A stretch of 64,000 nt of DNA from Selaginella tamariscina (taxonomy: Eukaryota > Streptophyta > Lycopodiopsida > Selaginellales > Selaginellaceae): assembly GCA_003024785.1 (NCBI GenBank), contig PUQB01000016.1, forward strand, positions 1 to 64,000. Reading direction: 5' to 3'. A model generated the notes under the pieces. The model had not been told where the DNA came from and did no database searches. It worked only from the letters and a program-made list of their open reading frames with translations. The translations under genes and the position numbers were made by a program. Positions within the stretch are counted from its first letter, which is position 1. Every line of letters begins with the position of its first letter. Positions 1 through 63,650 of this stretch are shown here, piece by piece.

Positions 1-103
1 AGAAGAAGCATGACTCAGAGTCAGGTTCCTCTGAATCAGATTCTTCGACGGAAGTAGTGGTGGAGGTCCCAGTAAATTCAAACCGGTAAAGCCTTCGAAT
101 TTC

Positions 104-890
104 ATGGGTTCAAAGGATTACAAGGTTTTGGATGACTGGTTGTATATGGAAAGCTATTTCGAGGCTGCTTCCGTGAGAAAGACAGAAAAGGTTGCATGTG
201 CCAAGCAATTTCTTAAAGAAGAAGCTAAGACTTGGTGGCGAATTGTTGAAGGTGAACGTGGATACCGAAACAGCTGGAAACACATGAAAAAGGAGATCAA
301 AAAGCAGTATATGCCGGATGATCTCGGTTTGCGATTGCGTGCTGACCTGGCACTTTGTCAACAGGGAGTTCGGGGAAGTCCAATGGACCACGTTTATCGA
401 TTCGAAAGTGTACGGCGATTGGTGCCAAATATGAGCGATGATGAAGCTCGAAGTTGCTTCATGGCTAGCTTGAATGAGAAGACGCGAAGGAAATCTTAAG
501 GTACAAGCCAACAAGCTATCGGGAATGTCAAGAGGCAGCTCAAAAGGTTGCTTATGGCATGTCGTTAGAAGACTTGTACAAAGGGGAGGAAGCAAAACCT
601 AAATCCAAGGAGGTTTCCTCCAAAGTCTGGGTTCAGAAGGTTTGATAGGCGACCAGATCAATCGCCATCAATTCGAAGTGCAAGTCCCTTTGTGGCAGTT
701 CCAAGTTTTCGGACACATCAAGACCCACCGGATTTCGGAAACCATTGGCGTTACCACCTCAGCAGGCCAAAGGATCGGCTCCAAAGTCTGCTCCCCCGTT
801 CCGCAGGCGGGGTCGTGAAATGTTATAATTGTAATGGTCATTTTGCTAAAGAGTGTCGGCACCCTCACAACAATCAGGACATTTCAAGGC
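104..890 (+). pseudogene. gag region of the chromovirus (capsid-type domain and zinc knuckle), fossil
   Basis: The first part matches the plant retrotransposon gag domain (a W-rich segment around KTWWRIVEGERGYRNSW). A CCHC knuckle of the form CYNCNGHFAKECRH lies at about 821-862. Part of the broken element described above. Confidence 0.85.
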
Positions 891-999
891 GATGGTAGAA
901 GAGGAAGTTGCTGAACCAGAAACGCTTGAAGATCCGGAAGATGAGTCAGAAGAGGTAATGTTGTGCCAGACACAACCTGCCTTATTCGCTATTCAAGAC

Positions 1000-1390
1000 A
1001 AAACTGACCCTTTGCTATATTTGACAGGAAGGATACGAGGGGACCGAGTCCGAATGATGATCGATACTGGAGCAACATACAACTTCATATCGACTAGTCT
1101 AGCTCCGATTGAATTTGGATGTAATAAAGATGTGTGAAATAAAGATCAATTTTGGCAAAGGTTCTCAAAATACTAATAATATAGCAAGGGCAGTTCCTGT
1201 CCAAATCAAAGATTGGAAGGCTAAGCTAGACTTAGTTGTCTTGAATATGACGGGGTTTGACTTTGTTTTGGGTATGGAATGGTTCCATAAACATGTAATC
1301 GAAATGAGGGGTTCCGGAGATAATCGAATCACGCTTGCAGCAATAAAGAGGACATTAGAAAAACAACGCTCAGATGGAAACGCTAACTGA
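1000..1390 (+). pseudogene. retroviral-type aspartic protease region, fossil
   Basis: The active-site motif MIDTGATYNFIS is read at about 1060-1095, and a flap/second-half segment with VLGMEWF follows. This is the pepsin-like retroelement protease placed between gag and reverse transcriptase, as in Ty3/Gypsy elements. Confidence 0.85.
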
Positions 1391-1618
1391 TAAGGATTGG
1401 AATCTTGTTTTCTTACCTTAACTCAGTTGCGTAAGTAGTTAGGCATTGGAAACGTGTGTTTCTTACAATGGTTTTAGATACTGGTGAAGTCAAAATAGGA
1501 GATGGTCAAGATTTGTTCCCGAACCTATTTTGGAAGTCTTGAACATGTTTAAGGATGTGTTGCCGGACTTGCCGCCCGAGTTACCTCCACGTCGAGTTGT
1601 GGACCACAGATAGAGATT

Positions 1619-2860
1619 TTGCCAGGTTCGTCTCCACCGGCAAGAGCCCCATATCGGTTGAATCCTCAAGAGTTAGTAGAATTGAAGAGACAGCTGACAG
1701 AATTGATTGGTCGAGGACACATTCGACCTAGTCGATCGCCGTATGGTGCACCTATCTTGTTTGTAATGAAAAAGGATGGTACGATGCGAATGTGTGTGGA
1801 CTATCGAGCACTGAACGCGATAACTATCAAAAATAAGTATCCTCTTCCACGAGTGGACGACTTATTTGATAGGCTATCGAAAGCAAAGTATTTTTCAAGA
1901 ATAGACTTGAGATCTGGGTACCATCAGATTCGGGTAGCAGAGAATGACATTGAGAAGACCGCTTTTCGAACGCGTTATGGATCATTTGAGTTTCTAGTCT
2001 TACCATTCGGGTTGTGCAATGCTCCAGCAACTTTTTGCACAATGATGGATGATGTGTTTAGAGACTATCTAACGAGTTCGTAGTGGTGTATATTGATGAC
2101 ATTCTGATTTTCAGTTCGACAATTGAGGAACATGTGGAACACTTAGAAAAGTGTTTCAGAGGTTGAGAGAGAACCAGTTGTATGCTAAAGAAAGCAAGTG
2201 CGCATTTGGTCAAACCAAGATAGATTTCTTGGGACACTTGATCTCAGGTGGGGAGGTTGCCATGGACCAAAGAAAATTCAAGCTATTACCGAGTGGATGA
2301 CTTTAAAAGACGTGCATGAAGTTAGATCATTTCTTGGTCTGACAGGGTATTACGAAGATTCATAAAGGGTTACTCGGAAATAGCGGCCCCATTGACAGAT
2401 CTTACGAAAGAACATTCCATGGCATTGGACTCCAGAGTGCCAACGTGCGTTCGTCAAACTCAAAGAGGCTATCTCTTCTGAGCCAGTTTTGCAGTTGCCC
2501 ATCTTTGAAGATCCCTTTGAAGTAGAATGTGACGCTTCCGACTTTGCAATTGGTGGTGTATTGCAACAAAAAGGACATCCAGTGTCCTTTTTTAAAAGTT
2601 AGATGCCGCGCAAACTCGATGGCCTACTCACGAAAAGGAGATGTATGTATGCTTCCTTGGAGTATTGGCGTCATTATCTTCCAAGTCATGGCACTGTGGT
2701 TTGGACAGATAGTGTAACTCTAAGGTATTTTGAAACGCAGCCGAAGCTATCGCCGAAGTATGCTAGATGGCAGCAGAAGTTGGCACGATTTCAGCCTGAA
2801 ATCAGACATAAGGCGGGAAAGGACAATGTGGTAGCTGATGCACTCAGTAGGAAGGGTCAT
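1619..2860 (+). pseudogene. reverse transcriptase and RNase H region, fossil
   Basis: Typical Ty3/Gypsy RT blocks are visible: [38 protein letters not shown] and a YIDD-type block near 2090. RNase H follows at about 2515-2850, ending near NVVADALSRK. Part of the broken element. Confidence 0.92.
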
Positions 2861-3029
2861 CTTCGTATTATGTCAGCACCCGTGTCAACTTTGGTGGATG
2901 AATTTGTGACGGCGTATCCTCAGGACAAGTTTGCTAAGGAGGCTTTGAGCCTGGTGGCAAAGAGGAAACAAGTTCATCAATTACGAAGAGATGGTAATAT
3001 TCCAGCAGGAATAGAAAGTCGAATGGATG

Positions 3030-3810
3030 CACTCAAACAGGCGCATTTTGGTACGAGATGGAGTTCTTTATTATAAAGAAAAGAGACTCTATGTTCCAGA
3101 AGGGACATGGAGGGAGAGGCTGTTAAGAGAGCATCACGACGTTCCTTTGGCAGGACATGGTGGAAGGCATAAGACATTGGCTTTGTTGAAACAGGGATTC
3201 TATTGGCCGGGTATGATAAGATGTTGCCAAGTATGTCAAGACATGCCCCACATGTCAACAAGTGAAGAGCCGATTGCAAAAACGAGCTGGGAAGTTGCAG
3301 TGTATACCGATTCCAGAGCGGCCATTTCAAAGTGTTACTTTGGACTTTATCATGGGATTGCCAAAATCTTGTGGTTTTAACGCGCTCATGGTGGTAGTCG
3401 ATCGGTTTTCAAAGGTTGCTCATTTCATTCCAACTGTAGAGACAGTGAATGCAAAAAGCGAAGTTGTTCTTCCACGAAGTCATAAGAGTGTGCGGGCTAC
3501 CGGAAACGATGATCTCAGATCGGGATCCTTTACGGGAAGTTTTGGGGAACATTGTAAAGCAGTTTGGTACAATGCTGAAGTTCAGTACAGCCTACCATCC
3601 GCAAACTGATGGTCAAACGGAGAGGGTGAATCGACAAGTCGAGGACTATCTCAGAATGTTCAAGGTGATCAACTTGATTGGGCTGAACACTTGGATATGG
3701 CTGAGATATGTTACAATAACTCGACACACACTGCAATCGGATGTAGCCCGATGGAAGTGTTAACTGGGAATAAGGGTGGTATTCCTTAGAGTATGGTGTT
3801 ACCGAAAGAC
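3030..3810 (+). pseudogene. integrase region, fossil
   Basis: An H2C2 zinc-binding region at about 3120-3250 is followed by catalytic-core blocks of the DDE retroelement integrase, including FNALMVVVDRFSKVAHFIP and STAYHPQTDGQTERVNRQ. Part of the broken element. Confidence 0.9.
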
Positions 3811-4219
3811 GATAGCAATCGAGTTCCATCTGTAGCAGAGTTCACTGGACAATTGTATCGACATGGGAAGCTGCTCGTCAAGCGATGACTGCAGCACAGG
3901 AAAGGTATCGTCAGCAGTACGATAAACATCGGCAGGGATGTAGAGTATCAGGTTGGAGATATGGTATTGTAAGTACTAAAAACCTAAAGGTTCCAACGAC
4001 TCTTTCGAGGAAGTTTCTATCGCACTACATAGGTCCATACAAGGTGGTGAAGCAAGTAGGAAAGTGACTTATGGGTTAGATCTTCCTCCGAGTTGGGACA
4101 ATACACAATGTGTTTCATGTCAATTTACTCGAGCCATTCCAAAGGATGAGAAACATCCGCAGAGATATGAAAACTTACGTCCGCTTCCTGAACTAGTCAA
4201 CATATGAAGGAGTTCAAGT

Positions 4220-4410
4220 TGAGTCGATTTTGGATGCAAAGGATATTAAACGCCGAGGGTGCGAAATAAACGGAATATCTTGTTAAGTGGAAGGATTACC
4301 TGGCATGCGAGTCGACATGGGAACCATTGGATAATCTACAGAACGCGATGGAGGTAGTGAAGGAGTTTAAGGCAAGGTCTCAAACTGTTAGTAATGATGA
4401 TGAGAAATAA
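4220..4410 (+). pseudogene. C-terminal chromodomain of the retroelement, fossil
   Basis: The segment reads EYLVKWKDYLACESTWEP followed by an acidic/aromatic tail, a chromodomain. In chromoviruses this domain is thought to steer integration toward chromatin marks. Its presence assigns the clade. Confidence 0.85.
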
Positions 4411-4779
4411 AGTGAACTTATTTCTTATTAACCTAGGGGCCGACAGACAACCTTAACTAGAGGCCTCCAATATAAATTCTAGTTAACTTAAAGAAATTAA
4501 CTAACTTGTTGTCTGTGTCGGTGACAGACTTTGCAGACGTGCAAAAGGTCTCCAAGTGACTTCTTGTCGCAGGTGGTGCCTCCGAGCTGAGTTGTCACAG
4601 TGAACGACGATTCTGAAGTACTTGACTTCGTGTAATGCAAGGGGGGTAATAAAACTTGTGAACTTTTTGTGACTCCGCATAGAGTGATTAGCGTTATTTT
4701 TAGTTAATTTTTCCTAACCTAGTCTAGTCTTGGAGTTAGACGTCAATGAGGACATTGACATTTTCAAAGGCGGGGAGTG

Positions 4780-5659
4780 TGTCATAGTTTTTACTATGAC
4801 TCGACCCTTTACTTTGGGGTTTGACTGTTGTTACCTACCGAGTTGTGTGACGAACCCTAGTTAGTGAGAAACAGCCCCGCTTAGTGCACTTAGTGTTTAG
4901 GGGTAGTCCGGCCGGCTATCATAGGTACTTGAGAAACTCTAGGCAAAGGTAGTACTTACCTTCTAGACATCCCTAGGGTTGCCCTAACCCCACACCCTAA
5001 ACCCCCCCTGGGGTTAGGTTTAGGGTTAGGTTAGGACAACCATTTTCTCTAAGGGCTGGCATTTCCATGCCAGCCCACTTACTCACTTAGGAAAACAGAG
5101 GGAGGGGGGGGGCGTTACATAAATAAGGTAGAGTATATGTAGTGAGGCTTCTGGGTTCAAAAGAGAGCTCGTTAACCTCCTACCGGTGCAAGCTAAGCTT
5201 GTGTCGTCAAGGCGCAACCCTTTGTTGTGCCGCCCTAACTACCATACGACAAGGGTACGTCCCACCTTTGGATTAAACTATCTTATCGTTGGCAGGATCA
5301 CGCCTTTGTGATGGGAGTACGTTACTTCCAAGGAGTTAGTTAGATTCCTTGGCCCGAAAACATGCTCACAAGCTCGAAGGCGTTGCCCGAGTTCACGTTC
5401 CGCAAAATTAGTGGTTGAGGCCTTGCTCCGGCCGCCTCAACCACGCCAAGTTAGGAACAATACCCGTAGCTCGGCTAGTTCGTGTGTCCTGATTCACAAG
5501 GTGAGCCTCGTTCGTGGACTTGGTCAACTAGGGACTTAAGTTCCTAAGAGTCGGTTCCTAATACGGGTTACTTACCAGATTCAGTGGGGTTTCCAAGAGG
5601 GGATTCCAAGTTTGGCACCTGGCAAGCCGCCTTTGTGGCACCAGGTAAAAACTCTGACA
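4780..5659 (+). repeat. 3' LTR of the chromovirus
   Basis: The LTR begins TGTCATAG directly after a purine-rich tract (4765-4779) and ends in ACTCTGACA at 5659, giving TG...CA ends and about 880 bp. The right edge is supported because sequence homologous to R1 copy B starts immediately after it. A telomere-like stretch (CCCTAAC/GGTTAGG variants) lies at about 4970-5035. The left LTR is not in the window. Confidence 0.75.
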
Positions 5660-8423: not shown

Positions 8424-8888
8424 CATAGTTACGAACACGAACACAAAACACGAACACGAGCCTCAGATTCCAAGAACCCGACCACGAAACACGATCACGG
8501 CTCACGATGCTCACGAATATTCTAGTGAATATTAATGAATATTCTAACTCGCACACAATCACTTTTATATTAAATTAATAAATATAAACTCAAAGAAATA
8601 ATATGTATTTAAAGAAACGTATACATGTCAAATTATGTATACATTAACCTTAAAAATGTGTTTTTTATCATATGTAAGCTGGTTGCCAAAACCTCTCTTA
8701 TAAATATGCTGCATTCTTCAAAAATAAAATAAAAAAATAAATACATCATATACATGTCTAGCTTATATAAAAATATAATATTTGGATATGTTGTACATAT
8801 TATCTAAAACTCCACGTTTTTACATGTTGTAGTTTAAATTTTATATAAATATATATGTGTGTGTGTGTGTTTATAAGTATTCTCATAC

Positions 8889-8926
<38 letters not shown>

Positions 8927-9254
8927 AATGTCATGATTATATATACAAAATTACCACTGTCGCGAAGAAGGATGCTTTCACAGTGTTGAATTGCTGTGCC
9001 ATGCTTTGTGCCTTGGATTGCTGTTGCCATTCCTGTGTGATGCCGTGCGCCCTAAAGTATATTCAATTAAGAATATTCTAAACAGTGTTTATGTTACGAA
9101 CCGAGCCGTGATCTCGGCCGTGGTCGCCGAGATCACGGCTCGTGTTCGTAACATGACACACTGTTCACGAACACGGCCGTAGGAACACGACCCATGGCCG
9201 TGTTCGTGAAACACGGTGAACACGGCCGGGATCCCGGCCGTGTTCGTAACTATG
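8424..9254. mobile_element. hAT-type non-autonomous DNA transposon, 831 bp
   Basis: The element begins CATAGTTACGAACACG and ends with its exact reverse complement CGTGTTCGTAACTATG, a 16-bp perfect terminal inverted repeat. It is flanked by the 8-bp direct repeat GTTAGGGT (8416-8423 and 9255-9262). Eight-base target duplications and short terminal repeats are hallmarks of the hAT superfamily. R1 copy C, read in reverse, passes through the equivalent spot (about 63715-63730) without the insert. The interior has many repeats of a CGAACACG motif near both ends, as hAT subterminal regions often do, and a TA microsatellite, but no transposase. It therefore depends on an autonomous relative elsewhere. 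Confidence 0.9.
9091..9154. repeat. Long near-perfect hairpin inside the hAT element
   Basis: Arms 9091-9118 and 9126-9154 are reverse complements except for a two-base length difference, with a 7-base loop. The outer arm (ATGTTACGAAC) resembles the element's own terminus (ATAGTTACGAAC), so this may be a relic of a nested related element or a subterminal transposase-binding repeat. Confidence 0.85.
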
Positions 9255-9827: not shown

Positions 9828-9836
9828 GACATGTTA
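9828..9836. other. Left 9-bp target-site duplication of the Mutator-like element
   Basis: GACATGTTA lies directly before the left end of the element and is repeated exactly at 18715-18723. R1 copies B and C keep an uninterrupted sequence of matching length at this place. Confidence 0.88.
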
Positions 9837-9960
9837 GGGTTTGACATTTCCTCGAACGCAGTTTGCTGAGCGTACGGATTTCCGTCATACCGGAATATTC
9901 CATTCTGTATAGAATATTCATTTTCGTATAAAGAATATTCTGGTGCGGCGGGCGGGCAAT
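9837..9960 (+). repeat. Left terminal inverted repeat of the MULE (degenerate)
   Basis: Begins GGGTTTGACATTTCC. Against the reversed right end it shows spaced matches in the first 35 bases (GA.CGCAG.TT then GAGC) and clearer blocks inside (ACGGATTTCCGTC; AAGAATATTCTGGTGCGGC). Several AGAATATTC palindromes occur. Confidence 0.7.
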
Positions 9961-10342
9961 CATGGCGACATGGTAATGGTGTCAAAGTTTCACAAATTTG
10001 GGGGTTAATCTGACATATATATTTATATATTTATATTATATTTATGTTTTAATTCTTTTAATATTATATTTATAACTATAATTATATTTTTTATATAAAT
10101 ACCGCATCAAACTAAATAAAAATTACAATAAAAACATAACTCAATCATGAAGACTCGTTTCCACCAGCCAGTGCCTCGTCGTTAATGAATGCATTGTTAC
10201 GGTGTCGTGAACGTTTCTCCAAATCTGTATGTCGTAAACTTCAAACTCTTCAACCATTTTCTTGCCATCTGATTAGCGTAGTCTGGTAGAACAATACTGA
10301 AAACATATTAAAGTTTAAAACCAAAGAAATGATAAAAAAATC

Positions 10343-13300
10343 TCACTCATCATCTAATGACTTGTATGATCTCTCTTCTGCTGACTCATCTGATGACTCG
10401 TCATTGTGCTCCACGGACTTCTCTGTAGCAACATCCTCATCGTTTCGAGAAGGCGGATCCTGGTCTCCATCGTTGTCGCTAGCCAAAGGCAAATCCTGTG
10501 CTTCTGTTTCCATGGCCCTCTTCCACTCATCAAAAGGAGTAATCATGGAAACGACTTGATCATCCCCACCACCTTCAGCTTCTGTAACACTTGGAATGAC
10601 CTTCCTGAAAACATCTCTGGCTGCTAAAACCAGATCCTTGTTGATGTCGATTCCATAACCATGTCTCCCTGTGTGAAAAGCTGCAAGAATACTAGCACCG
10701 GTAGATCCACGCAGTTCCACCAAGCTTTGTGAGCTTCTCCACTAGCATCGCAAACAACTTGGGAGATTTCGGGCCAATTGAAATCCTGAAAGTTACAATA
10801 TTAGAACATGAAAATAACAAACAACATTATACCATGGGAGCTGGAAATCTTCTGGCTCATCAAAAAGAAGGTGTAGCGAGTGTCCAGGATCTCCTTGTTC
10901 TTGGCGACCTTAGAGTAGGGGGAACTAAAAATACACATGGCAATGATGCTTTCCTGAAAAACAAACATTAAAAAATGACATTCTCAAAAAGAAGAATTAC
11001 CTTTCTAGAGAAACGGTATCCCCATGACCTTGTCGTGTGCACATAACTCATCTGCAGAAACTTTAGCTTGCAAGTTTCTGCAGTGTTCTTCAAAATTGGA
11101 CATCATTCGGTAGCACAAACACCACCACATGGCCAGCTCTGTCTAATACCCGAAAGCAAGGTTCACCAAGTTCTTCAGCAAAGCATCCAAGAACTTCGTG
11201 TATTGATCCACCATCCCGCCTGCCTCAGCAATGCATCCGGTAGGCGGTCGATGACAACGAGATCAATAGCTCCCTGGATGCATTTTGGTGGAGGCTTCGC
11301 ACCAAACACATGAATAGTCCAACTTGATTTGTGACTCACGATCCAATCCTCAAGCTCCTTCAATCCCGACGAAAAAGGCCTTCCAGCTTTGAAGTACTGG
11401 ACTGCAAGGTTCTCTGAATCTGCATGAATGATTTCCCAGCTTCCATTTCCCTTCTCAGGCATCACCATCCTCAACATATCATCTTTTTCCAATCCAGCCG
11501 AGATGAAGGATGGGGATGAAGAAGAAGCCTGTCCCTTGCTGACCTTGCTCGCCGATCTAGCATACCTGATATCCATCTTCACATGGAACTTCCTTGCAGC
11601 ACTGTCGTTCTTCCATAATAGCTCTCGCCGATCATCCTTGTGTATCTTATAGCTGGCCATCTCCCATTTGGGACAGTCACCAAGAAGGAAATCCAGCCAA
11701 AAAGGACAGTGTTCCACTTTGTAATCACTAATATCACTTAACAATCGGCTCCACATGCTAGAATCCTTGGCAACATCCATCCACTCTTTGAAATCTTTAG
11801 AGAGTGCATCGTTTTTCCATTTTAAAACCTGTAAAAATAGATAAAAATCTATAAAGAAACAAAAAAAAAGACTTGCCTGAATGCCATTCTTTTTACAGAT
11901 TTTTCCAGCTCAAATAGTCGAGAAGGTGGAATTGTTGCACCAAACTCCTTGTTCTCGAGCATGTTCTGGTACATATCCAACTTAATTTCATTGTGCATCT
12001 TCATATACCAAGCCATGAACTCCTTTACATGCTCGACCAAAAGCTCTTTAGCTGCCTCCCCGACCTGGCACGATAAAACAAATAAAAATGAAAAATATAA
12101 ATACTAAATTACCTGGAACCAATAAGTAAAGATGTGCAAAAACTTGATGAAGTCCTTGTTAGGCCAGCCGGTGACACCTTCCTTCTTGTCTTTCTTCGTC
12201 ATGTTCACCAGCTTCTCAAGAACGCCACGTTCTTGAATGTGCACAAGCTTCCCAAGGATATTAACCTTGACGTTGGAAGGAAGCTAGGACTTCGCGAGCA
12301 TTTGAAGCTTCTCCAGAGTTATTTGCTTCGTTGATGGTTTGATAGTGATATCTGTGATCGCCTTGAACCAATCTTCGCCGACCGCCGGATCAGCAATGGT
12401 GAGGAATTTGTTCATCCGAATTGTGAATATCTTGTAAACGCTGGAGAGGATATGAGATTTTGTCTAGTTTGATTTCCTATTCGCAAGTTTTGTAGCGATT
12501 TGTCGCTTCAGTTGATTCTGCAAAAGAAACCGAAAATCAAAAAATAATCAAAAGAAGAAGAAAAGATTACCTCCCAAAAATGTCATCTTTGGATACTCGT
12601 ACTAAACATCTTCTTTTTTGTTCGATCTCCACACTTCCACAGCTTTTCTATCTTCCTCCGGCATCCCGCGAAGAACATGATCGGTAGAAAGATTTGCAGA
12701 CTTTACACAACAATTCCACAAGAACTGCAAGGTGTGAATGATTGTTGTAGGAACCACACGAGCAGTTGCTCTGCAAAACAAAACAACATTTTATTTAGTA
12801 TTTAAATAATGAAACAACAAGTCACCTACTCATTCAAACCAATTGCAAGCAGCGATTAGTCTCTTCTCCTCTTGCGCTGTGGATGCTATAAGTGTTGCAT
12901 GTACACGCAAAGTCCATTTCAAACCTGGCTCTTCAGCAAGCAAAGTTTCAAAGCAACCCGACGATGATTCCTATCCCACACCAGAAACTTTGCATCTTTC
13001 AAAAACCGATACCATGCAGAAAATGCTGGCTTATGCAAATCCGCTTCAAACTCTCTATCGACATGTGCTTCTGACTCATTCCAGCTTCGGCGTTCGTCTG
13101 CACTCAGCTGTGGTTCGAAAGATAAGGTGAACACTGACGTCTCCTGGAAATCCTTCAGCTCTAATCCATCCAACAAGGTCTTTCACGCTGTCCTTAGTGA
13201 CATTCCTCAAACGTTGGTGTGGGAGCAACTTGTGAACCGGGATACGCGGAGGCTCACTAAGCTCAACTGGAAAGTGGTCTCGTCCTTGTAGCGATGTGTC

Positions 13301-13655
13301 AATATCCGTGTCATACCGAATAACAACATCCCGAAGAAGCTTGGATGGAGCCTTAAGTGTCAGCCGTTCCGGAATTGCATATGATTCGGCAACATCCTCA
13401 GGAGCATCCAGTTTCCTCTTCTTATTGAACGCTTTACTACCAAGATCAATGTCCGGTACTTCCTTTGCATTACCGTGTTTTATAGAGCTTCCTGCGATCT
13501 CCCTATTCTAGGCATCCATTCACTCACCACAGCATGTTCATCAATGACTTGCAAACTATCCACAAGTTCATTGTTCGTCGGCATCATCTCTTCGCGTTGC
13601 AGTTGTTGCTTGGCACCTCCTCAGCCTCCTTTCTTGCCACGAGTTTTGGAGCCAT
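10343..13655 (-). CDS. Putative transposon-borne DNA amino-methyltransferase (beta-class motif order)
   Basis: A multi-exon gene reads right to left from an ATG at 13655 to a stop at 10343. At least six introns of about 46-60 bp can be seen (near 12774-12826, 12521-12570, 12066-12112, 11830-11877, 10954-11000 and 10786-10838). The C-terminal third holds a Rossmann methyltransferase pattern in permuted order. First comes a motif-IV-like segment, read as DLVVID followed by PPTGC if one C is restored to a C-run near 11243. A strand-like HVVVFVLPND follows. After further exons comes a motif-I-like segment ELRGSTGASILAAFHTGRHG with YGIDIN (about 10640-10720). Catalytic motif before the AdoMet motif is the order of beta-class N6-adenine/N4-cytosine DNA methyltransferases. 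The long N-terminal part (nuclear-type, charged) is unrecognised, and the tail is acidic. Reading frame is interrupted by several single-base indels. The methyltransferase call is inference from motifs. Confidence 0.6.
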
Positions 13656-13855
13656 ATCTGCAAGAACTTCTTGGACGATATGTTCCTTGTGTATGTGTGT
13701 AATGTTGCTTGTGTGTGTGTGTGTAATGTTGTTTGTTTTGTGATGTGTCTGTGTGAAAGAGAAAGATTCCGAATATGGGTATATTCATATCTCTTCACAT
13801 GTATATACAGACGAAAGAGCATCATCTCATATATACAAGTCTTAGATTCATATAC

Positions 13856-13915
<60 letters not shown>

Positions 13916-15171
13916 TTTTTTATGTATTATATATATATATATATACACACACATGTATACAAGTCTAATGTTGTATAATCATAATGTGGTACGTGTAAAA
14001 TGTTATTTGTGTGTGTGCGCAAACACACACACACACACACACATACGGATTTTCTTGCCAAATTGGGCAGGAAATCCTGTCGCCAGGATGGTGCGGCCGC
14101 CGCACCATTCCAATGGCAGGATTTCCTGCCCAATTCGGCAGGAAAATCCTGCCGCCCAATGGTGCGGCTGTCGCACCATCCTGCGGCAGAATTCCTGCCA
14201 AATTGGGTAGGAAATCCTGCTGCCCAGATGTGGCCGCCGCACCATTCCGACGGCAAGATTTCCTGCCCAATTCGGTAGGAAAATCCTGCCGCCCAGATGG
14301 TGCGGCCACCACACCATCCAGGCGGCAGAAATTCCTGCCGAATTTGGGAGGGAATGTGTGTGTGTGTGAGTGTGTTCACCGAAATCGGCAAGAACTCATG
14401 TCGTCGGAGGTGTGTGTGTGTGCACGCGCGCGCGTTTGTGAATAGAGAGAAATCCTACTGAATTTGCATTATAGCTATTAAATTTGCACACACATATATA
14501 AGATTTTACCTAGCCATGTCGCCGTGATGCTCACACTAGCCTCATGTTGCCGCAAATGGAGAACAAGAGCGCCAAAAAAAAGAACAAAAGTGCCCTCTCT
14601 CGACAATGGAGAATGGAGAAGAAGAATGGGCGCCCTAAACCTTTACCCTAAAATATAACACTTAACCCTTTGACCCTTAACTATAAAACTGTGTTTAATC
14701 AAACCATGCAAGTATATACAATACTTGCGATAAATAACGTACTATATAAAGGATAATACAAACACATATTTAAGTAAAAATTTGTATGTTAAAAAAATAT
14801 TTATTATATAATTAAATAAATATTCATGTAAAAATATGTATTTATAATGTCTACATTAGATAAAATACTGGATCAAATAACTATATAATTATAGTAAAGA
14901 AAGTAACAGAATATAAACAAGTCATAAATAAATATGTCAGATGAATGTAGATTAGACACACATTTATTTAAAAGATAATAAAGATTGCTCTATCTCTACG
15001 TGAAGTGCTATACTATATTAGCATCTAAGATCTATACGTTTCCTTGAATTAAATATTGCCCACGTTGAGTCATGATTATGAATTTTTGAAACGGTAATAT
15101 CCGATATTTACCAAAAGATGATTAAGTAATGCTGTTGTTTTTTTGTCACGTTTGTGGTAACTGCTTGCAAA
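13656..15171. promoter_or_regulatory. Central divergent intergenic region of the MULE
   Basis: About 1.5 kb separates the start codons of the two divergent MULE genes, so it should hold both promoters. It contains TG/GTGT runs (13690-13740), a long TA run (13861-13912), a CA run (14027-14043), the GC-rich palindromic array (14051-14353) and then AT-rich DNA. Open frames across the array are a by-product of its GC-rich repeats and are not called as genes. Confidence 0.6.
14051..14353. repeat. GC-rich tandem array of ~70-bp palindromic units
   Basis: Four full units of about 70, 70, 67 and 72 bp and a partial fifth start at about 14051, 14121, 14191, 14258 and 14330. Each contains two dyads: TTCCTGCC-(6-7)-GGCAGGAA and GGTGCGGC/GCCGCACC flanked by CCTGCCG and CGGCAGG. 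The array is strongly GC-rich while its surroundings are very AT-rich, and it is flanked by CA and GT microsatellites. It could form a row of cruciforms or bind a dimeric protein. Confidence 0.88.
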
Positions 15172-18100
15172 ATGGCCAGGATTGTTTACGGCAATTTGGA
15201 TCACGATGTTCCTGTGATAGATGGTGTTGGAATCATTCTTACTAATCAGATCAGAACATTCTTTGGCATTTTTGATTGGCAAAGTGTTCGCCTTTTTTAA
15301 ACTTCTTCATGGGCAATCTGCTTTAGAGATCGAAATAAACGAGGACCAAGATGCTGGAGGGAAGGATAATCCAGGATATGTTTTGTTACCGGATGAAGGA
15401 CCATTGTTTAAGCTTGTCGTTTGCTTCTGACTCTGAATACTCAACGTTGAAGGACCTTTTCACTTCTAATACCTGCAAAAGGGAAGAATTCTTATCGAGG
15501 GTTCCACGATCATTCATACAAATGAATTGCCTGTTGCGTATGATGGGGATGTCATTTTTGAGCTCCCTCCTTCCGAATACAAATACAAAGGAATGAATCG
15601 GAAAGAGGATGGACATACCTGGACAGCAGGAACGACCAGCAACTGGAATTTTCAAGCGAGGGTGTCCAGGAGCAAATGTGTTGGGAGCCTTTGCTGTATC
15701 AACCCGGACTGCCCTGCTTCTAAGGCAGGATTTCCGAACTGCACTAAATGGAAAGGATGTATTGTTTCCCCACCTTCAATCGACAAACTGGCAAAAGGAT
15801 TGACATGTTTTTTCTGTAAAGAAAATCCATTGTGCCTTGAAGTTTGTCATGCTGTGGCGTTTTGCGTTTTCCCAGACGACATAACCAAGACTAGATTGTT
15901 TATCCACCAGGGAAAACATTCACATCCAGTGGGTGATGGTGTTTCTGCATCGAACAAAGAAGAAATGCATATGGCGGTCCAGAATGCAACAGAAAGAACT
16001 CCCAGAGCTAGTCCAAGAGTCATCGAAATGGCAGCATGTAAAGATGCTATCTTTGGTTTCCTATTAGATAATTCTGAGCCTGGAAGTTGGGATAAGCTCA
16101 TGGATCATTTGCAGCCATTATCAAACAATCGAAGGTACAATTAGAGTTTTACTTTGTGCTGAGCATTCTTTGATAATACCTTTGATGCAGAGTTCGTCAA
16201 TGGGTAGCGTCCGCAAAGAGAACTGCTGCTGAAATGCCAGAGAATATTGATGGATTATTGGAGCTGAAACGAAGGTTGTCTATCCCATTCATCCACGTGA
16301 TTCACTATCCTGGGATGAATTTCCGTGGTTCAGACGACCAGGCATTAGTTTTTAAGATGACGGTTTCAGGGCCAGGTTCTGGAATCGATTATGTAAGGAT
16401 GTGCCAACCTCCTCTTGGCCCTTTGCAGAAGAGTTGGGTTCTACTTGATCACACACACCGTGTTGTTGATAAGTGGATCACTCTGGCATTGCATGTTTAC
16501 GACCCAAAGTAAGATGTTATCTTTTTGTTGTTTGCTTAACTCTTTGATTATTTTATAGTGTGCGTCGATTATCCACCATTGCTTATGGTGACATGAAGAG
16601 ACAAACGGCTGGAGCTGTGGAGAAGTTTTTTCGTGCTATGTTGGATGTCTGTTCCGAGAAGGGAATCTACAATGTGCAGTTCGCTGGGTTTATGTCCGAT
16701 GAAGCAGGAGCGATCTGGCAAGCAATCAGGAATGTGTTCTTTAATGGCCAAGAAATTCCTGGACGTGAACGGAGCTGTATCTTTCACTATGAACAAGCCA
16801 TACAACGTGTGACAAGGAAGTGGGTCCCTCTTGAACATCAACAACAACATCTTCAACTTTTGAGATCATGGCCAACAGCCACATCAACAACTGATCGTGA
16901 AGAAATTGAAAATAATCTTTTCCGCTTTTGGAATGAAAATGTGAAGGATGTTGGAGTTATGCAGACGTGGTTTTCATGGTGGGAAAGACAGAAGAATCAT
17001 ATTTCAAATGTTGTTCTTGAAAGCATGCCGGAGAATGCTGCAAGGGTTGTGCCCATGACAAACCAGTCGGAGTCTGTTCACGGAAGATGGAGGAGGGCTA
17101 GAGATTCAAAATACATTTCATTGTACCAAGCTACAATCCACGACCTGACTGAATCAGTGCGACAATGTGCTCTTGTGAAGGCTTTTAGAGATGGAAGGTA
17201 TAGTGGTTCCGGGCCGACTTCAGAGGAGCTCTCAGCAAGGTTCGAGAGAAGAATGTCAAATGCTAACTCAACAACACCTACAGCAAAGGTTATCATCGAC
17301 TTAGTTGAAGATGTTGCTCCATCAAGCATGCAGGATACTGCTTTTGTGGCTGCCACGAATGTTGAACATCGCACTGTGCAAAGAAATATGGGGTCAGAGG
17401 CTGAACGATCCCACCGACCGGACATCTTCTATAGTGAACAGGTTATTCCAACACAGTGTAGACGGAAGCGACGGTTGGATTTTCCTGTTGCAGAAGAACA
17501 TGAAGAATATGTTCTGGTTGAAGAACAAGATGTTACACCTGGACAATGGGCGATTAGAAGATGTGGTGAAAGAAGTTCTGTGAAATGTCTGGCAGGCTTT
17601 CCCTCTTCAGGAGGTCAGTGGAGTGCTTGTGACAAAAAGATAGTCCTAGTGGTAATCGAGTGGCTGCTCCTTGTTTTTTGGAAGGATCAGTACAATGACA
17701 AAGAAACTGGTGAAGAATGCTTTCGCTCACAAATGATGTATTTTTGTCCAACAAACATGCTTTGCAGCAGACATCCAAGACCAACTATTGTTTCTCCGCC
17801 AGCTTCTACCTCGGTTTGGAAAGTTCAAGTGGGCACGAAGCTGATAGAGTGGAGATCAATGATCTGGCAAGATCGGTTTTATGCTAGCTGGGCTTCCTTC
17901 AGCTCATGCAAGAGTGCCAGGTTTTTCAACACCTCATGTTCCTTCAGTTCCTGTTGGAGTCACTGGATTTTCAACACCCCTGCACAATTTCGTGGACCTC
18001 CTGTTCCTGCAAGTGGTCGTGCAACAAGAACACCTTTAGGATGTCTAAGAAACAACAGGTAAGTTTTGAAGCATGTTTGACGTTGGGAGCATATGTCGCA

Positions 18101-18346
18101 GAAGTTGACGTGGTTGATCCTCCAACATGCATTCGCTTCAGAGTATGTGACAACGACCATACATCTGCTTGGGTTGTCATTTGCAGCGCACCATCTTGTT
18201 CATGCTCGGAGTTCTGCAATGGTCGTCAGTGGGTGCCTTGCAAACATATGTATTTTGTTTACAAGCGTGTACTGGGAGCTGATCCTCGAGTTGTCAAGCA
18301 TTTGCAACGTCGTACACTTGCACCCCGTGAACTAAGTTTTTATTGA
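15172..18346 (+). CDS. MULE transposase with N-terminal zinc-binding region and SWIM domain
   Basis: The gene starts at an ATG at 15172 (MARIVYGNLDHD) and ends at 18346. Two tiny introns are supported by frame and splice sites: 16135-16190 and 16509-16558. An N-terminal cysteine-rich region ending in GKHSHPVGDG resembles WRKY/FLYWCH-GCM1 zinc-binding folds common in MULE transposases. The DDE core shows WVLLDHTH (first D), FMSDEAGAIWQAIRNVF with a following CIFHYEQA (second D and C..H), and MTNQSESVHGRWRR (E). A C-terminal SWIM finger reads CSCSEFCNGRQWVPCKH (about 18200-18250). The core from 15527 to about 17560 is open apart from the introns; the N-terminal 350 bp and the segment around 17570-17900 are broken by small indels. 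It would bind the terminal repeats and cut and move the element. Confidence 0.85.
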
Positions 18347-18530
18347 TGCTACCAAGGAACCTCCATCCTCCACCATCTATTTAGTGTGTTTGGTTTGTTT
18401 TCAAACAGCTTCGGTTGTTATAATTTTCAATATAAATTTTAATAGTAATTTTATGCTTAGCATATTTTTAAGTAATTTAACGTATATTTCCTTTAAATAT
18501 AACAAAAATATACTACCATATTTTGTACGC

Positions 18531-18714
18531 GGCCGCACTAGAATATTCTTGAAAATTTGGAAGGTCAATTGTGTGTACACTTGGCAGTACGAAAAATTTC
18601 CGTACAGAATTTAAGGATATCTAGACGGAAATCGTATGGAACAACAGAATAGTCAAGAATATTCACAAATCTTAGTCAAGCTCGTTAACCTGCGCTCAAA
18701 TTTCGCCGTGCCCC
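18531..18714 (-). repeat. Right terminal inverted repeat of the MULE (degenerate)
   Basis: Ends CGCCGTGCCCC at 18714. Read in reverse it mirrors the left end (ACGATTTCCGTC and AAGAATATTCTAGTGCGGC blocks). Confidence 0.7.
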
Positions 18715-18723
18715 GACATGTTA
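18715..18723. other. Right 9-bp target-site duplication of the MULE
   Basis: GACATGTTA, identical to 9828-9836. Confidence 0.88.
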
Positions 18724-18859: not shown

Positions 18860-21620
18860 CACTGCCTACCATGTCACCTCTTTAATTGATTGGCAGGTAG
18901 GTGGCACCCGTATTATTGTAGTCATTTGCTAAAACTCAATGAAGTAGCATAAACATTTAGTTGTGTAGTTGCATTAACATATATATATATGAATTTGTTT
19001 AAGTCTCTGGCACACACACATATATATATATATGCTAAACTATTTGATTAGATGAAAATACAGGTCTTTTATTTAACTGGAGGAGTCTCTTATCCTAGAG
19101 AACTAACAGAGGATTTATTAGCTGGTAATTGATTAAGCTAAATACGATGTGTGTATGTTATTTACTCTCTCAGTCAATCACACAACACACAAAAGGTGAG
19201 GAATTGGTAACAAACTTCATAACAGTATACTCCTTGGACTTAAGTTTTATAAAACATTTAATTATTATACTTTTAATCAATTATCATTAGTAATGTCTTT
19301 CTAAAGCATAATACTAGTAATTTAGAATTCAAATAAGAAATGAATAATCGTTTATATTTATAGAAGTTTTTCTAAGAAATTGCTTTCCATGAGATACACT
19401 TATAAAACATTACTCAGTTCTGCGCTCCAATACAGCAAATAAATATTAAGTTTTTAAGTGTGCATGAAGCTTGAAATATAATTTTTTTTTATTTAATGCA
19501 AAAAGTAATTAGAAAATTGTTTTATGCAATGATGTAAGACATGAAAGATACATATGTCTATAAAAACTATGACATTTCATTTAAATATATAATAAGGGCA
19601 ATCTTTCTCTAGGCAAATTGTGTAAAATAAGCACCGTACTTAATCTTTTTGGAGCTAAATAGCGTTAACATAAGTACCACATCAGCACAGTAGTATCAAT
19701 CTTAAAAATGAAAGGTTACAGTGTATATAATCCATAAAACTGCCTACTACTTATGCCACACACGACAGAGGCAAACCAGGTCAATACAAGATTGTTTGTT
19801 TGTACACGCATCATGTAATATTTAAGAATAAAGACAAACGGATGAAAGAATATAATTTTCAATATATGTTTGGTCAATGCAAGTGCGTAAACGGGCACAA
19901 GACATCTCCGTCGTGTCGAGGCCCAAGCTTCCCGTGTTTAAGTGCGCCAAGCTCGGAGAGCTTATACCCCTTCTGGAATGCAGGAGGCGCATAAACATTG
20001 CCATTTAATTGCCTGAGTAGGTCTGGATTTGCAGCAGGATTGGGGCACCAGTCCACCTGAATACTCCCTTGTGCATTCTGCACGCTCCTGGGAGCATGAA
20101 TAAGGAAACAAAGGTCCCGGCCACCAGCTTGAGGGATCCCATAATCATCCACTCCACAAGCATGGGTGGCTTGTGTAAGACCCACGGCGTGTCTCATCCT
20201 GAGTCAATCATGGAGCACACACCAGCCTCCACGACGGGTTGAATGAAGTTTGGAAAGCTGTCCAGCACCAAGTGCTTGAGCTCTTGCACAATCTCTCTTG
20301 TTCTGCTCGGTGAACACTGCATTTTTGGCCTCGAATCCTGAATGAAATCCCTTCATAGCTGAATGTTGTGGGATGTCCTTCATCCCCATTCTCACACCCA
20401 CATCGTGCCACACTGTGTAAGCGGCCAGCTGCTCGCTCTGGGTCAACGCCTGAAACCCAAACTTACTACAAAAGTCGATGGTGTGCACCACATTCAAGCA
20501 CAGTACATACACAAACTCGTGGTTGGGTATCTTGAACTTGGCATGGATCCCATTCAGCCTGCGCACGGCATAGGAGCCACGCTCGCTATCCACGTGGTGG
20601 CTGATCATCTCCGCCACCAGAATGTTGGTCTCGGCAGCCCGTTTCTCGGGCTCCTTGAGACCGTACTTGGTCTTGAACAGCAAGTTGGTGATGTGGGGTA
20701 TACCCAGTGTGCGTATGGTTCCCAGCTCTAGTGCCTTCTGGGACAGGAATGGGAACTCTACCGAGTGCAAGTACCAAAGGATCTTGCGAGCGTCTTTCAC
20801 AGGATCCAGAGACGCTATGTACCTGGCCCTCTGCTTCCTCTTCACAATGCAAAACACTTTCCATGCGAGTGCAAGTGCAGTGCGACAATGGCTATGTAAT
20901 AAGACATTCTTCTTTCTTTCTTTCTTGCTAGAGGAGACGATGAGATGAAGTTGATGCGAGAGCCTTAACCATGTAGCTATATACGTCACTTATCAATGCC
21001 ATGTGAACATGTTTGGACTGTAGCCACCGTACGTAACGCTAGTTTGACACGGCGTTGTTAATTATGCTTACATCTAACAAAGTTATACATAACACTGGAG
21101 TTTTGTGTAGCTATAAGTTATTGATTGTGATAGGCTTTGGCTTCAATATGTGTACCGCCGCTGATGCCATTCTGCATGTTTTCCTTATTACCACTGTTTA
21201 TGAAAAAGATCTATCCACCCCAAGGCTTGACAAAGTTCACGTGTTCATTTGTACCCAATAACTTCAGGTGGCCACACACGTACTCCTAGATGAGGGCCCC
21301 AATTGAGGGGAACTGCTTTTTGATCAGAATCGTCAATTGAATGTAGACTTAAGCGTTTGATCGTTCCAAGTTGCCTAGAAGGAAGACGTTTTGTATGTTA
21401 TTCTGCCACTTCATCATTTTCTTGTATGGCTTGTAATCTCATTTATTTATATATTTAGAGTTCTATAAAATAACATTTAATAATTAAGTTTACTGTAACT
21501 AAACTAATCAAGGAACAAACACCACAAAAAAGAGTCTTACTTATTTGATAATAAATTATTTATTTCACTTCAAATTTGTAAAAATAAGCTGTCAAATGTT
21601 TCACACATAATTTAAACTAA
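18860..21620. repeat. Segmental duplication, copy 1 (carries mpaB-like gene)
   Basis: This segment matches 56905-59725 in the same orientation, including flanks on both sides of the gene (for example AATACGATGTGTGTATGTTA upstream in sequence and AATAACATTTAATAATTAAG after it). Differences are scattered substitutions and many small indels. The copies start about 38 kb apart. Confidence 0.9.
19874..20907 (-). pseudogene. mpaB-like ER-bound oxygenase (DUF2236 / rubber-oxygenase fold), disrupted copy 1
   Basis: On the minus strand the pieces read as an mpaB-type protein: a basic segment after an N-terminal membrane anchor (KVFCIVKRKQRARYIASLD), LEFPF-like VEFPFLSQKALELGTIRTLG, GIPHITNLLFKTKYG, then LNGIHAKFKIPNHEFVYVLC, and a C-terminal part ending CPFTHLH. 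mpaB of Penicillium shows the same order of blocks. Members of the family are haem-containing oxygenases that cleave isoprenoid chains at the ER; the substrate here is unknown. The gene has no introns. Against copy 2 it carries at least six small indels (near the start codon, around 20300-20350 and at 20090-20200), so the frame changes repeatedly. It is either dead or badly read. Confidence 0.75.
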
Positions 21621-23879: not shown

Positions 23880-26800
23880 TATGTACTCTTGTATGTTGAT
23901 CACTTGTTATTGAAGACCATGACCATAATGATGTTGTCAAATATGTAAGTAACTGGCCTATATATATATTTATTCTTATATGTTAATCACTTGCTGTTGA
24001 AAGCCATGACTAGAACAATGTTATAAAAGTAATTTGCTACCCTCACTAAGTTTTACATTCAAACGTGCCTTAAGGTGAACTTACTTACATATTAGTGTCT
24101 TAGAAACACCCGTGGATATGACATGCAAGTACCAAGGACAAACAATTCTATAGGTAGAAAGATAAATAACTACATAAGAGAAACATATGGCGTGCATGAA
24201 TGAGAAAGAAGGGAAAAGTAGCACAATGTGTATATTATGGAATACATGTAAAGTTGATAATAAAACACATGAATGTTAGGATGTTAAGAGAAATAATATG
24301 GTGTAAAGTTCACTTTGGTGTATGTTCAATGTGGAAACTTAAATTAAGTAAAATAAAATGGGAAAGAATGGAACAACTTAATACGAATTTTATTTAATAT
24401 GCGACAACGACATAATATATTATAATGATAATGAAAATCAGAATGTATTAATGAAATTGAAGGTTGAAAATATGCACTACAGTATGTAATAAAGTTGAAT
24501 GTACAAATATTTGAATTGGCTTATGATGCAATGATAAATTTAAAGAAGCTTTGTTTGACACACTAAATTGGATAGTGGTTTGGCTTAATAAAATAAACCA
24601 TGGAAATAAAAATGAATTTGAACACCTTACTTACCAAGATAAATGGATGTATAGTTCTCACACAAGTTATATTAGAGAGATAGAATAAGATTTAAAATAT
24701 ATCAGGTGTTAATGAACATGGAAATGATATATAAATAGAAAGTGTATAAAATTGCAACACTTAAAAGTGAGAAACATATTTGCAAAATTGAGATTCAAAT
24801 CGCACATGTTATATAAAAAAATAGGATAAAACCTAAAATATAAGTTCTGCCTCATGCGTGTGCATGAAAAATTTCATTAATAATATTGCATATTTGAATA
24901 TAAAGAATCCTTGGTTTTCTTTTATGGCATTTGAATATTGCAAAATTTTTTGCAAAGAATAGGGCAAGAAGATAATGTAATAAAAGAAATATAATGTGAT
25001 AGATACAAATCACTAGAGCTAAAGAAGAATGTGTTATGCAACAGATGTCGAATTTCCCCTTGTGAGCATCATGCGACATTAGCTAACTATTTTTATATAT
25101 ATAAGTGTGTGTGCGCACGCACATGTTATTGGATTAAAACAAAGTTCAACAATTCAATAATAATTATTTTTATTTAATTCACATCTCTACATATTAAAAC
25201 TACATACACCCACATTACACATTGTAGACATGATATTATTGAATATTTACATAATTATATTATATATATTCATAGATAAATGCTTTGATATAATTAATAT
25301 AATTAGCTTAACATTGGTTGGGGCTTTATATATATACACTTGTCAATTCATTTAAATGATTAAGATTGACAAAGTGTATTCATAAATGTCATATTACTAA
25401 TTATTATTTTCATGTAGTGATTTTGGAATTTCTTTTATATAAGTAAAATTTATTTCTTAGTTTATAAAATGGTTGAACATAAGTTAATACCATTTTAACA
25501 CATGTACATTTTATATTTAAAGATAATACATACATATAATAAAGTACACAATATAATTATATAGTTTATTTAAAATATTTTGTATTACTATCAAACATAT
25601 TTGTGCATACTATGGCACACACACTAATATTAAATTGACATGTTAATTCAATACATATTATTATCATAATGTAAATAAAATGCAAATATTTTATCAATTG
25701 ACGTGATTATGTAATGTATAAACATAGTTTCAAATTACATATTATGATCTTTGTATTAAAGACACATGTCCAACCCATAACATTGAATATGTTCTCTTAA
25801 GCTTATAACATGTGTATACACGTGTACATATTCATAACTTGCATATACATTTTGTAGGTTATTCTAATGTAAGATTATAGGGTTTAGTTTCATAAAAATA
25901 TATTAATCTAATTAGTTGAATTTACATAATTTATTATGCATTGTTATGGTTAATTTATAATTGTTGTTCCACACTATAACTGTAATTAATTTTATTTAAC
26001 AAATTGCATTAACATCATAAAGAGTTCACATTTTATATGGGTATATAATAGCTGGGTGCACCCTAAGGATTATTGAATTAGCATGACATAGGAAGGTTTT
26101 TTTTTTTGTATATAAATAGGATATCTAAGTAGTTTTTATTAAACTAATAAAGATATATATAGTGTTGTAAGATGGGGAGATAATTGGTCTTATTAGTGTT
26201 CAAAATGTTATATTTTATATATTATATAATCTATATAATCATATTATATAATTATTAATTTATATAAATTTATCTAATTTATGTATTTACAAAAGAAAAC
26301 ATATTAAAGAGAAGTAAATATGGTAGCGAAAGGGGTTTTCACTATGGACTATGGTGTGTATGTATATGTTTTACACTTATTTAATTTAATAAAATTTTGT
26401 GATATAAAATCATTTTTTATTGTATATTGGGTTTTTTAATTATTGGTCATCCGCAAATAGCATATGTATATCTTAAGTGGTCAATTAGTCTTAAGTGAAC
26501 TTCCCCATATTAACATGTATATGGTTTAAGGTTTGGATTATAATTTAAGTATAAAGAATTTAAAAACATAAATTCAAATTTAAAAAAGTTTAAGTAAAAA
26601 ATTAATATGGTAAGACTAAAAGTCTTTCACAAACCTACTATACCTCTCTTGCTTAAAAAAGGGCATATAGGAGCATCCTCGTTCATGTGGTTTTTGAAAA
26701 TAATCTAAATTATTTCCTTTTTCTATAACAGCTTGCATAAACTTTTCAATATTATGATTAACATTACCGTTTCCAACGTCAAATAAAAGATCGAAAGTAC

Positions 26801-56465: not shown

Positions 56466-56904
56466 ACTGTTAGGATTCACAGTAAACCAAATTTGAAAAA
56501 CCTTATTCTCACTGAGTAAAATATTAATTAGAAACTGATTCATAATTTATTATTTAAGATTTTTTTATATTTTCTTTAGTTTTTATTTTAAAACTCGTTT
56601 AAAATAAAATTAATGCCTTCGAAAGTTTGCTAAGTTGTGTGAAATGCCACAAAAACACATAATTACACATAAAAATTGTATATTTATATAATAAGGGCAA
56701 TCTTTCTCTAGGCAAATAGTAAAATAAGCACCACACATGCACACATGTACTTAATCTTTCCCGAGCTAAATAGTGTAAAAATAGTATATACATTATATAT
56801 TATGAAATATATGCAGTTTTGTTTCACACGTGGGAAAGAGTATCATAAATATTATAAATAAATTATAATTTTATTATTATTTTTAAATACATGAAATATT
56901 AATC

Positions 56905-63609: not shown

Positions 63610-63650
<41 letters not shown>

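Follow-up and report, generated by a model that had tools for sequence, protein, structure and literature searches.

A Mutator-like transposon of Selaginella tamariscina with a methyltransferase-like accessory gene and palindrome arrays near its ends

In a 64,000-nucleotide stretch of the genome of the lycophyte Selaginella tamariscina (contig PUQB01000016.1, positions 1 to 64,000; here called the window), positions 9837–18714 are occupied by a defective copy of a young, autonomous-type Mutator-like element (MULE) with two genes that are transcribed outward from its middle. One gene encodes a transposase. The other, on the opposite strand, encodes an accessory protein whose C-terminal part resembles beta-class amino-methyltransferases, making it a putative DNA-methylating protein, and whose N-terminal part, with weaker support, appears ParB/DndB-like and presumably DNA-binding. 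Close to its ends the element carries arrays of an 8-bp palindrome, GAATATTC, and similar arrays accompany a homologous gene in a second transposon family. On these grounds we tentatively propose, rating the idea a little short of even, that the accessory protein recognises the terminal GAATATTC arrays as part of a VANC-like system that licenses transposition of its own family.

A two-gene element and its copies

A sequence-only reading of the window had described an element bounded by an exact 9-bp duplication and by two uninterrupted copies of its target, holding a D-D-E/SWIM transposase and a divergent gene with six or more introns that travelled together as one unit, and each part of that description stood up. 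The ParB/DndB-like N-terminus, the second family, the palindrome arrays and the algal precedent go beyond that reading. The duplication, GACATGTTA, flanks the element on both sides (9828–9836 and 18715–18723). When the two flanks are joined, relatives of the target run uninterrupted across the junction at 63647–63054 (77% identity) and 26147–26742 (74%), while a third relative at 56896–57460 matches the right flank only. The ends of the element, GGGTTTGACATTT...GCCGTGCCCC, are common to copies at other sites and were constant across the different insertion sites of the 17 copies that we tabulated. Like the window copy, 11 of these 17 have an exact 9-bp duplication, with a sequence that differs by site; the duplication is imperfect in L019 (8 of 9 bp) and in L014, L018 and L023 (only 6 bp), is absent from L013, and the right end of L024 was unmapped. 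The element does not have long terminal inverted repeats (TIRs), since the first 25 bp of its two ends agree at 13 of 25 positions; MULEs with weak or absent TIRs exist.

The transposase gene (15172–18384, plus strand) was assigned from profiles and from motifs identified by eye, and comprises three exons (15172–16134, 16191–16508 and 16559–18384). Its frame is broken in the window; in the representative copy L020 the three exons encode a protein of 1,037 amino acids. This protein matches the NCBIfam IS256 transposase model at residues 448–611 (E=2e-6, 27.1 bits, against a curated whole-protein cut-off of 150) and the MULE model PF10551 nearly at full length at residues 404–504 (14.9 bits, cut-off 27.6), both below cut-off. 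By eye, we take the signature residues to be the D of LLDHTH, the D of MSDEAG, a C-x2-H motif, the E of SESVHG and a C-terminal SWIM motif, CSC...CKH. A 210-residue piece of the transposase searched against PDB gave a single match, to a nanobody (E=1.2). Taken together, the profile matches, the signature residues and the 9-bp duplication support a divergent MULE, and the Mutator-like identity of the repeated unit in the window is confirmed.

To follow the two halves of the element through the source genome (300.7 Mb in 1,391 contigs), we scored the best 40 of 159 candidate loci for a transposase-half query (window 15000–18700; the window is one of the 40) and the best 38 of 168 for a left-half query (window 10100–13740). 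The transposase-half loci were nearly all 97–100% identical to the query, and the left-half loci mostly 95%, because the window copy has itself diverged. Twenty copies were fetched, of which 18 had been picked for being listed with both halves, a bias in the sample, and two (L031 and L032) were known through the right half only. Across the 20 aligned copies the median pairwise identity was 99.8%; between the window copy and L020 it is 97%. L030 shares its left flank with the window copy and is therefore that very insertion, present again on a second haplotype or in a duplicated stretch; it was excluded from the alignment.

Left-gene sequence was found at 37 of the 40 transposase-half loci, window included. 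Twenty of these 37 (again with the window) appear in both lists, eight were paired through adjoining accessory-protein matches, two are fetched copies that hold the left gene (L031 and, in part, L032), and seven are those of ten fetched test pieces that contained exon 5. In the L039 test piece the left end of the element stands at the expected place of exon 5, which indicates an internal deletion, and the L038 and L042 pieces had no element sequence at that place. In the reverse direction the check covered 32 of the 38 left-half loci: 20 were paired through the two lists, transposase sequence was present in nine of ten pieces examined (in one of them partly), and two more loci pair with separately found transposase matches. 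The tested piece from contig C1137 was without transposase sequence, the nearest listed transposase being about 17 kb away.

Reading frames were scored in the exon frame of L020, with the splice sites of other copies unchecked and L027, which has one residue fewer, counted as open. By this measure the accessory coding sequence is open in 10 of 20 copies, the transposase in six and both in four (L014, L016, L020 and L021). Many further copies have the same ends and both genes. Most of the accessory gene is gone from L032. Some of the frameshifts may be indel errors of the assembly. The window copy is defective in both genes: in the L020 frame its transposase stops after 42 codons and its left gene after 31. 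The left gene has also lost about 220 bp around its start, and the motifs IV and I discussed below are unreadable. Between the two genes lies a GC-rich, highly palindromic stretch (14047–14354); in most of the fetched copies it seems to be shorter.

These counts bear on whether the left gene is a host gene captured once and carried as a passive passenger. Plant MULEs often capture genes (Pack-MULEs), which lends the idea some prior appeal, and the sequence-only reading had named copies without the left gene as the sign of such a capture. The presence of left-gene sequence at 37 of 40 loci speaks against it, as do a homologous multi-exon gene with shared intron positions in a separate family and the purifying selection on that gene, both described below. 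A single capture could outlive the second family only if both families derived their gene independently from one host gene, and we give it almost no credence.

The accessory gene and its homologue in a second family

The accessory gene (10145–13679, minus strand) was modelled in L020 and mapped to the window by alignment. It has eight exons in intact copies, corresponding to window positions 12830–13679, 12571–12770, 12113–12517, 11877–12064, 11001–11828, 10833–10953, 10347–10785 and 10145–10296, and its frame is broken here. In L020 the eight exons are separated by seven introns of 47–59 bp and encode 1,092 amino acids. Exon 1 (12830–13679) encodes a basic N-terminus and the ParB/DndB-like domain, with the motif WDGNHR near 12978 in intact copies. 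Exon 5 (11001–11828) holds the motif IV region, where intact copies have DPPT near 11249, and exon 7 (10347–10785) holds the PF01555 match together with the S-adenosylmethionine (AdoMet)-binding motif I, which in intact copies reads DLTVGTG near 10707.

Searching the genome with PF01555 yielded 739 candidates; all of the best 150, which were scored, lay above the cut-off, and by eye none of these 150 stood at a listed locus of the window element's family (family 1). One of the 150, L053, represents a second family (family 2), with a full-length homologue of the accessory protein that is only 28% identical to that of family 1. Where introns can be compared, five of six agree in position and phase between the two families, and intron 3 is absent (by eye). 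The 3' end of family 2 was recovered at all 40 scored loci (best 40 of 229 candidates) at 98–100% identity, and seven 200-base pieces from other loci revealed a related family 3 in six cases and family 2 in one. Because family 1 copies are about 99.8% identical, selection was assessed by a between-family codon test in place of the within-family ratio of non-synonymous to synonymous substitution rates (dN/dS). Over 731 aligned codons, families 1 and 2 are identical at 45, 54 and 31% of first, second and third positions, with about 26% expected at the third, which implies purifying selection on the accessory protein over a span that brought synonymous sites close to saturation.

The terminus of family 2 lies at about L053:3627. 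In the search with this end, 18 element-only copies stop at query positions 194–200, and 15 loci holding an unrelated tandem repeat begin at position 199, from which we conclude that L053 is an insertion into that repeat. An end at L053:3612, where 21 of 40 alignments stop, was replaced after this terminus search. The tandem repeat itself (L053:3628–3965, on contig C112) also occurs on C1291, where its units are about 12 kb apart, and on C491 and C1368; a junction of the L053 type between element and repeat is found at two further places on C491 and one on C169.

The assignment of the C-terminal part to the amino-methyltransferases draws on several searches. PF01555 matches the accessory proteins of family 1 (34.8 bits) and family 2 (36.4 bits) above its cut-off of 26.7, in agreement with the domain type proposed by the sequence-only reading, with the match confined to the last quarter of the profile (165–220 of 221). 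A DNA methyltransferase profile, PHROG 67, matches over both motifs IV and I (E=7.6e-11, best 2.9e-11). When a two-family profile was compared with PDB, the best relatives were CcrM (E=2.7e-4) and MboIIA (E=5.5e-4), with DpnA at 5e-3. Motif IV (D768 of DPPT) precedes motif I (919–925), which is the beta-class order, and the GTG of motif I and the first D and last P of motif IV are kept between families 1 and 2. In the N-terminal part, WDGNHR is conserved in both families.

The family 1 accessory protein found no relatives among 7,995 scored candidates (E <= 0.001) and the two-family alignment none among 7,990 (E <= 0.01); relatives were likewise absent from the phages (searched with a 397-residue piece), viral contigs and prokaryote genomes covered.

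Palindrome arrays and their possible role

In the window copy the left subterminal array (9893–9940) consists of three GAATATTC sites (9893, 9912 and 9933), and two sites remain in the right array (18541–18664; sites at 18541 and 18657). L020 has eight sites in its terminal 310 and 362 bp, where 0.12 would be expected from the window frequency, and none in the rest of the element. Among 16 copies in which the sites were counted, all have three at the left end and 15 have five at the right (four in L027), with none in the middle; one site each occurs in the flanks of about 1 kb in 3 of the 16. Over the whole window there are 11 sites, where shuffled sequence gives a mean of 1.79. Family 2 shows a comparable arrangement, with three exact sites and one near-site at L053 3541–3591, 36–86 bp from the end of the element, as compared with 57–104 bp at the left end of family 1.

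Genome-wide, arrays of three GAATATTC sites separated by short gaps number 2,261, as opposed to 4 for a control in which the pattern was reversed. Relaxing the centre of the palindrome to GAANNTTC gives 2,429 triple arrays against 349 for its own reversed control; as the 168 additional arrays are fewer than the control, the arrays are specific to GAATATTC. This specificity is relevant to the suggestion that the sites are heat-shock elements, with the consensus nGAAnnTTCn, which would make the transposon stress-inducible. Two pairs at the right end are indeed spaced like four-unit heat-shock elements. Yet the free-centre surplus falls short of its control, and it is the 3' ends of the genes that the arrays adjoin, rather than the intergenic region at the centre. 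We disfavour this reading and consider it very improbable.

The first 50 array places (on contigs C1–C41) could be viewed individually. Two of them are left ends of family 1 copies. Three listed PF01555 matches fall on these contigs, and an array lies 230–245 bp downstream of those at C10 and C14:499976; for the third, C14:22266, no downstream array was present among the 50 places viewed. Many of the 50 are 49–51 bp long, and the one of that length at C1:323829 reads GAATATTCTAAAGAATATTCTATTTTCAAACATATATTCTAAAGAATATTC, which suggests an abundant family. In the window itself, a short element of 831 bp (8424–9254), with perfect 16-bp TIRs, CATAGTTACGAACACG, and GTTAGGGT on both sides, holds three GAATATTC sites (8515, 8537 and 9071); it may be non-autonomous and served by the same trans factor.

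In the licensing system that we propose, the ParB-like part of the accessory protein would recognise the terminal GAATATTC arrays. The methyltransferase-like part would act there, either methylating the element's own ends or lending its cofactor fold as a non-catalytic module. Occupancy or methylation of the arrays may then mark or unsilence the protein's own family and so license its transposition, much as VANC does for the VANDAL MULEs of Arabidopsis. In favour of this proposal are the joint travel of the two genes, the existence of intact copies, the methyltransferase profile matches, the conservation of the protein across very different families, the terminal position and genome-wide excess of the arrays, and the VANC precedent. 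The sequence-only reading had envisaged that such an enzyme could mark the element's copies, shield it from cutting or time its excision, roles that are conjectural.

Several observations weigh against the proposal. The PDB matches and several of the NCBIfam matches are confined to the AdoMet-binding region, and methyltransferases with substrates other than DNA are among them, for instance ribosomal protein L11 methyltransferase (E=0.0068 in the same PDB profile search). The consensus of motif IV in amino-methyltransferases is (D/N/S)PP(Y/F/W), and active enzymes normally have an aromatic fourth residue. That residue is absent here. Of the 20 aligned family 1 copies, 18 have DPPT as motif IV, and the other two, L032 and the window copy, are unreadable at this place; family 2 has DLPNG, and all six pieces of family 3 have DLPNE. 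Thus, of the DNA amino-methyltransferase motifs claimed by the sequence-only reading, motif I and the PF01555 match stand and motif IV departs from the usual form. The DndB match of family 1 is below threshold (19.1 bits, E=7e-4, cut-off 29.1), and a profile search of both families found the Pfam ParB domain in neither and the DndB match not in family 2, which leaves motif and architecture as the basis for calling the N-terminus ParB-like.

The departures in motif IV, across all three families, raise the alternative that the protein is a pseudo-methyltransferase, which has kept the AdoMet fold, no longer carries out amino-methylation and counters silencing by binding specific DNA sequences. 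VANC proteins counter silencing in a sequence-specific way (PMC5735166). However, families 1 and 2, at 28% identity, have both kept GTG in motif I and, in motif IV, the D and the second P, residues that a dead domain need not retain. We judge this alternative unlikely, if worth keeping in view.

A further difficulty concerns the arrays. Only four of the 50 places viewed could be assigned to an owner, leaving 46 without one, and there is no evidence that links GAATATTC to the accessory protein over the transposase or a host factor. The arrays might therefore be binding sites of the transposase, with the methyltransferase-like protein acting elsewhere, for example on chromatin or on the timing of transposition. 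Many plant DNA transposons carry subterminal transposase binding sites, and the arrays are subterminal and beside the 3' ends of the genes, where such sites are expected. Under this explanation the two families should share a type of transposase, which is unsupported: by eye, none of the listed matches to IS256, MULE (PF10551) or PIF/Harbinger (DDE_Tnp_4) models adjoins a listed family 2 locus, a point limited by how poorly the MULE and IS256 models find even family 1's own transposase. On balance we hold transposase sites to be rather improbable as the explanation.

Host methylation adds a last point on this side. Measured against the majority of 17 young copies, C-to-T differences in the window copy are raised at CG (38 of 552 positions) and CHG (40 of 656) relative to CHH (51 of 2,454); within the 17 young copies CG is also raised (17 of 552), with 11 of 656 at CHG and 31 of 2,454 at CHH. 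The direction of change is assumed, and the differences of the window copy include 75 A/T-to-G/C transitions as well. From the raised CG and CHG differences, some copies at least are probably exposed to cytosine methylation by the host.

The licensing proposal has a wider form that we regard as distinctly doubtful, in which several plant transposon families would share a self-marking system. A ParB-guided methyltransferase-like protein would read the GAATATTC arrays at the tips and either write a bacterial-type base mark on them or mask them, and the thousands of arrays would then form a genome-wide code of 'transposon self' that is read in trans, non-autonomous elements included.

Genomic surroundings and relation to known systems

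The window begins with what looks by eye like a Ty3/gypsy-type retroelement (about 1–5600), in which pol is broken and the end resembles a chromodomain. An apparently frameshifted gene, which we take to encode an mpaB-like oxygenase, is present twice, at 20204–20989 and 57965–58998 (minus strand); the second copy stands between stretches that resemble the target of the element. The window also encodes proteins that we take, by eye, to be PPR, glycosyltransferase-like and BAHD-like. Elsewhere in the genome a separate MULE family that scores with PF10551 (e.g. C102:183580 and C158:179831) has 16 copies with an identical score, about half of which have a 637-residue frame; it is not near the listed PF01555 matches.

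VANDALs are MULEs, as is MuDR of maize, which has a 9-bp duplication, long TIRs and two convergent genes, the second being mudrB. The Selaginella element is like MuDR in being a MULE with a 9-bp duplication and a second gene, and unlike it in that mudrB is unrelated, the ends match at 13 of 25 bp and the genes are divergent.

The closest precedent is Sola1-1_Ec32 of the brown alga Ectocarpus, a 21.5-kb Sola1 DNA transposon. Opposite in strand to its transposase, it has a gene for an accessory protein of 1,104 amino acids that combines ParB-like and N4C/N6A methyltransferase domains (PMC12477816). Its authors suggest that such accessory proteins form a class whose members bind the transposon that encodes them and modify it; the paper also cites green and red algal cases (Iyer 2011; Petroll 2025). 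Compared by description only, our 1,092-residue protein is similar in size, in strand and in its methyltransferase part, whereas its ParB-like part is a sub-threshold profile match, and its carrier is a 9-kb land-plant MULE with GAATATTC arrays in place of a 21.5-kb brown algal member of the Sola1 superfamily.

VANC proteins of the Arabidopsis VANDALs bind arrays of a short motif in their own element and cause loss of methylation (PMC5735166). The two systems share a transposon-encoded protein and short motif arrays in the non-coding DNA of the element, and VANC is family-specific; in contrast, VANC is not described in that text as a methyltransferase or as ParB-like, and the VANC21 motif YAGTATTAY occurs in tandem repeats, as against a palindrome at the tips here. 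DNA methyltransferase-type genes on mobile DNA are also known from retrotransposons with captured DNA methyltransferases, and DIRS elements with Dam-like N6A enzymes are mentioned (PMC5890265); unlike the present element, these are retroelements with C5 or Dam-like enzymes, and the available text mentions no ParB-like part. Finally, N4CMT of bdelloid rotifers is, like the accessory protein, a permuted bacterial amino-methyltransferase of the PF01555 type in a eukaryote, but it is a host gene with a chromodomain fusion that helps to silence transposons, whereas the gene described here is borne by a transposon (PMC8885841).

Genes joining ParB-like and methyltransferase domains on algal DNA transposons are thus already known (PMC12477816). 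What is new is the MULE and land-plant setting, together with the subterminal GAATATTC arrays in both families; searches of open-licence papers turned up neither a MULE nor a land plant with a gene of this kind. The algal precedent, as far as that source goes, is one family in one paper; the land plant described here has at least two families and a large number of nearly identical copies. Eukaryotic transposons are normally the targets of DNA methylation, and an element that carries a bacterial-type methyltransferase-like protein of its own inverts that relation. With GAATATTC as a candidate target site, binding, methylation and anti-silencing by this protein become directly testable.

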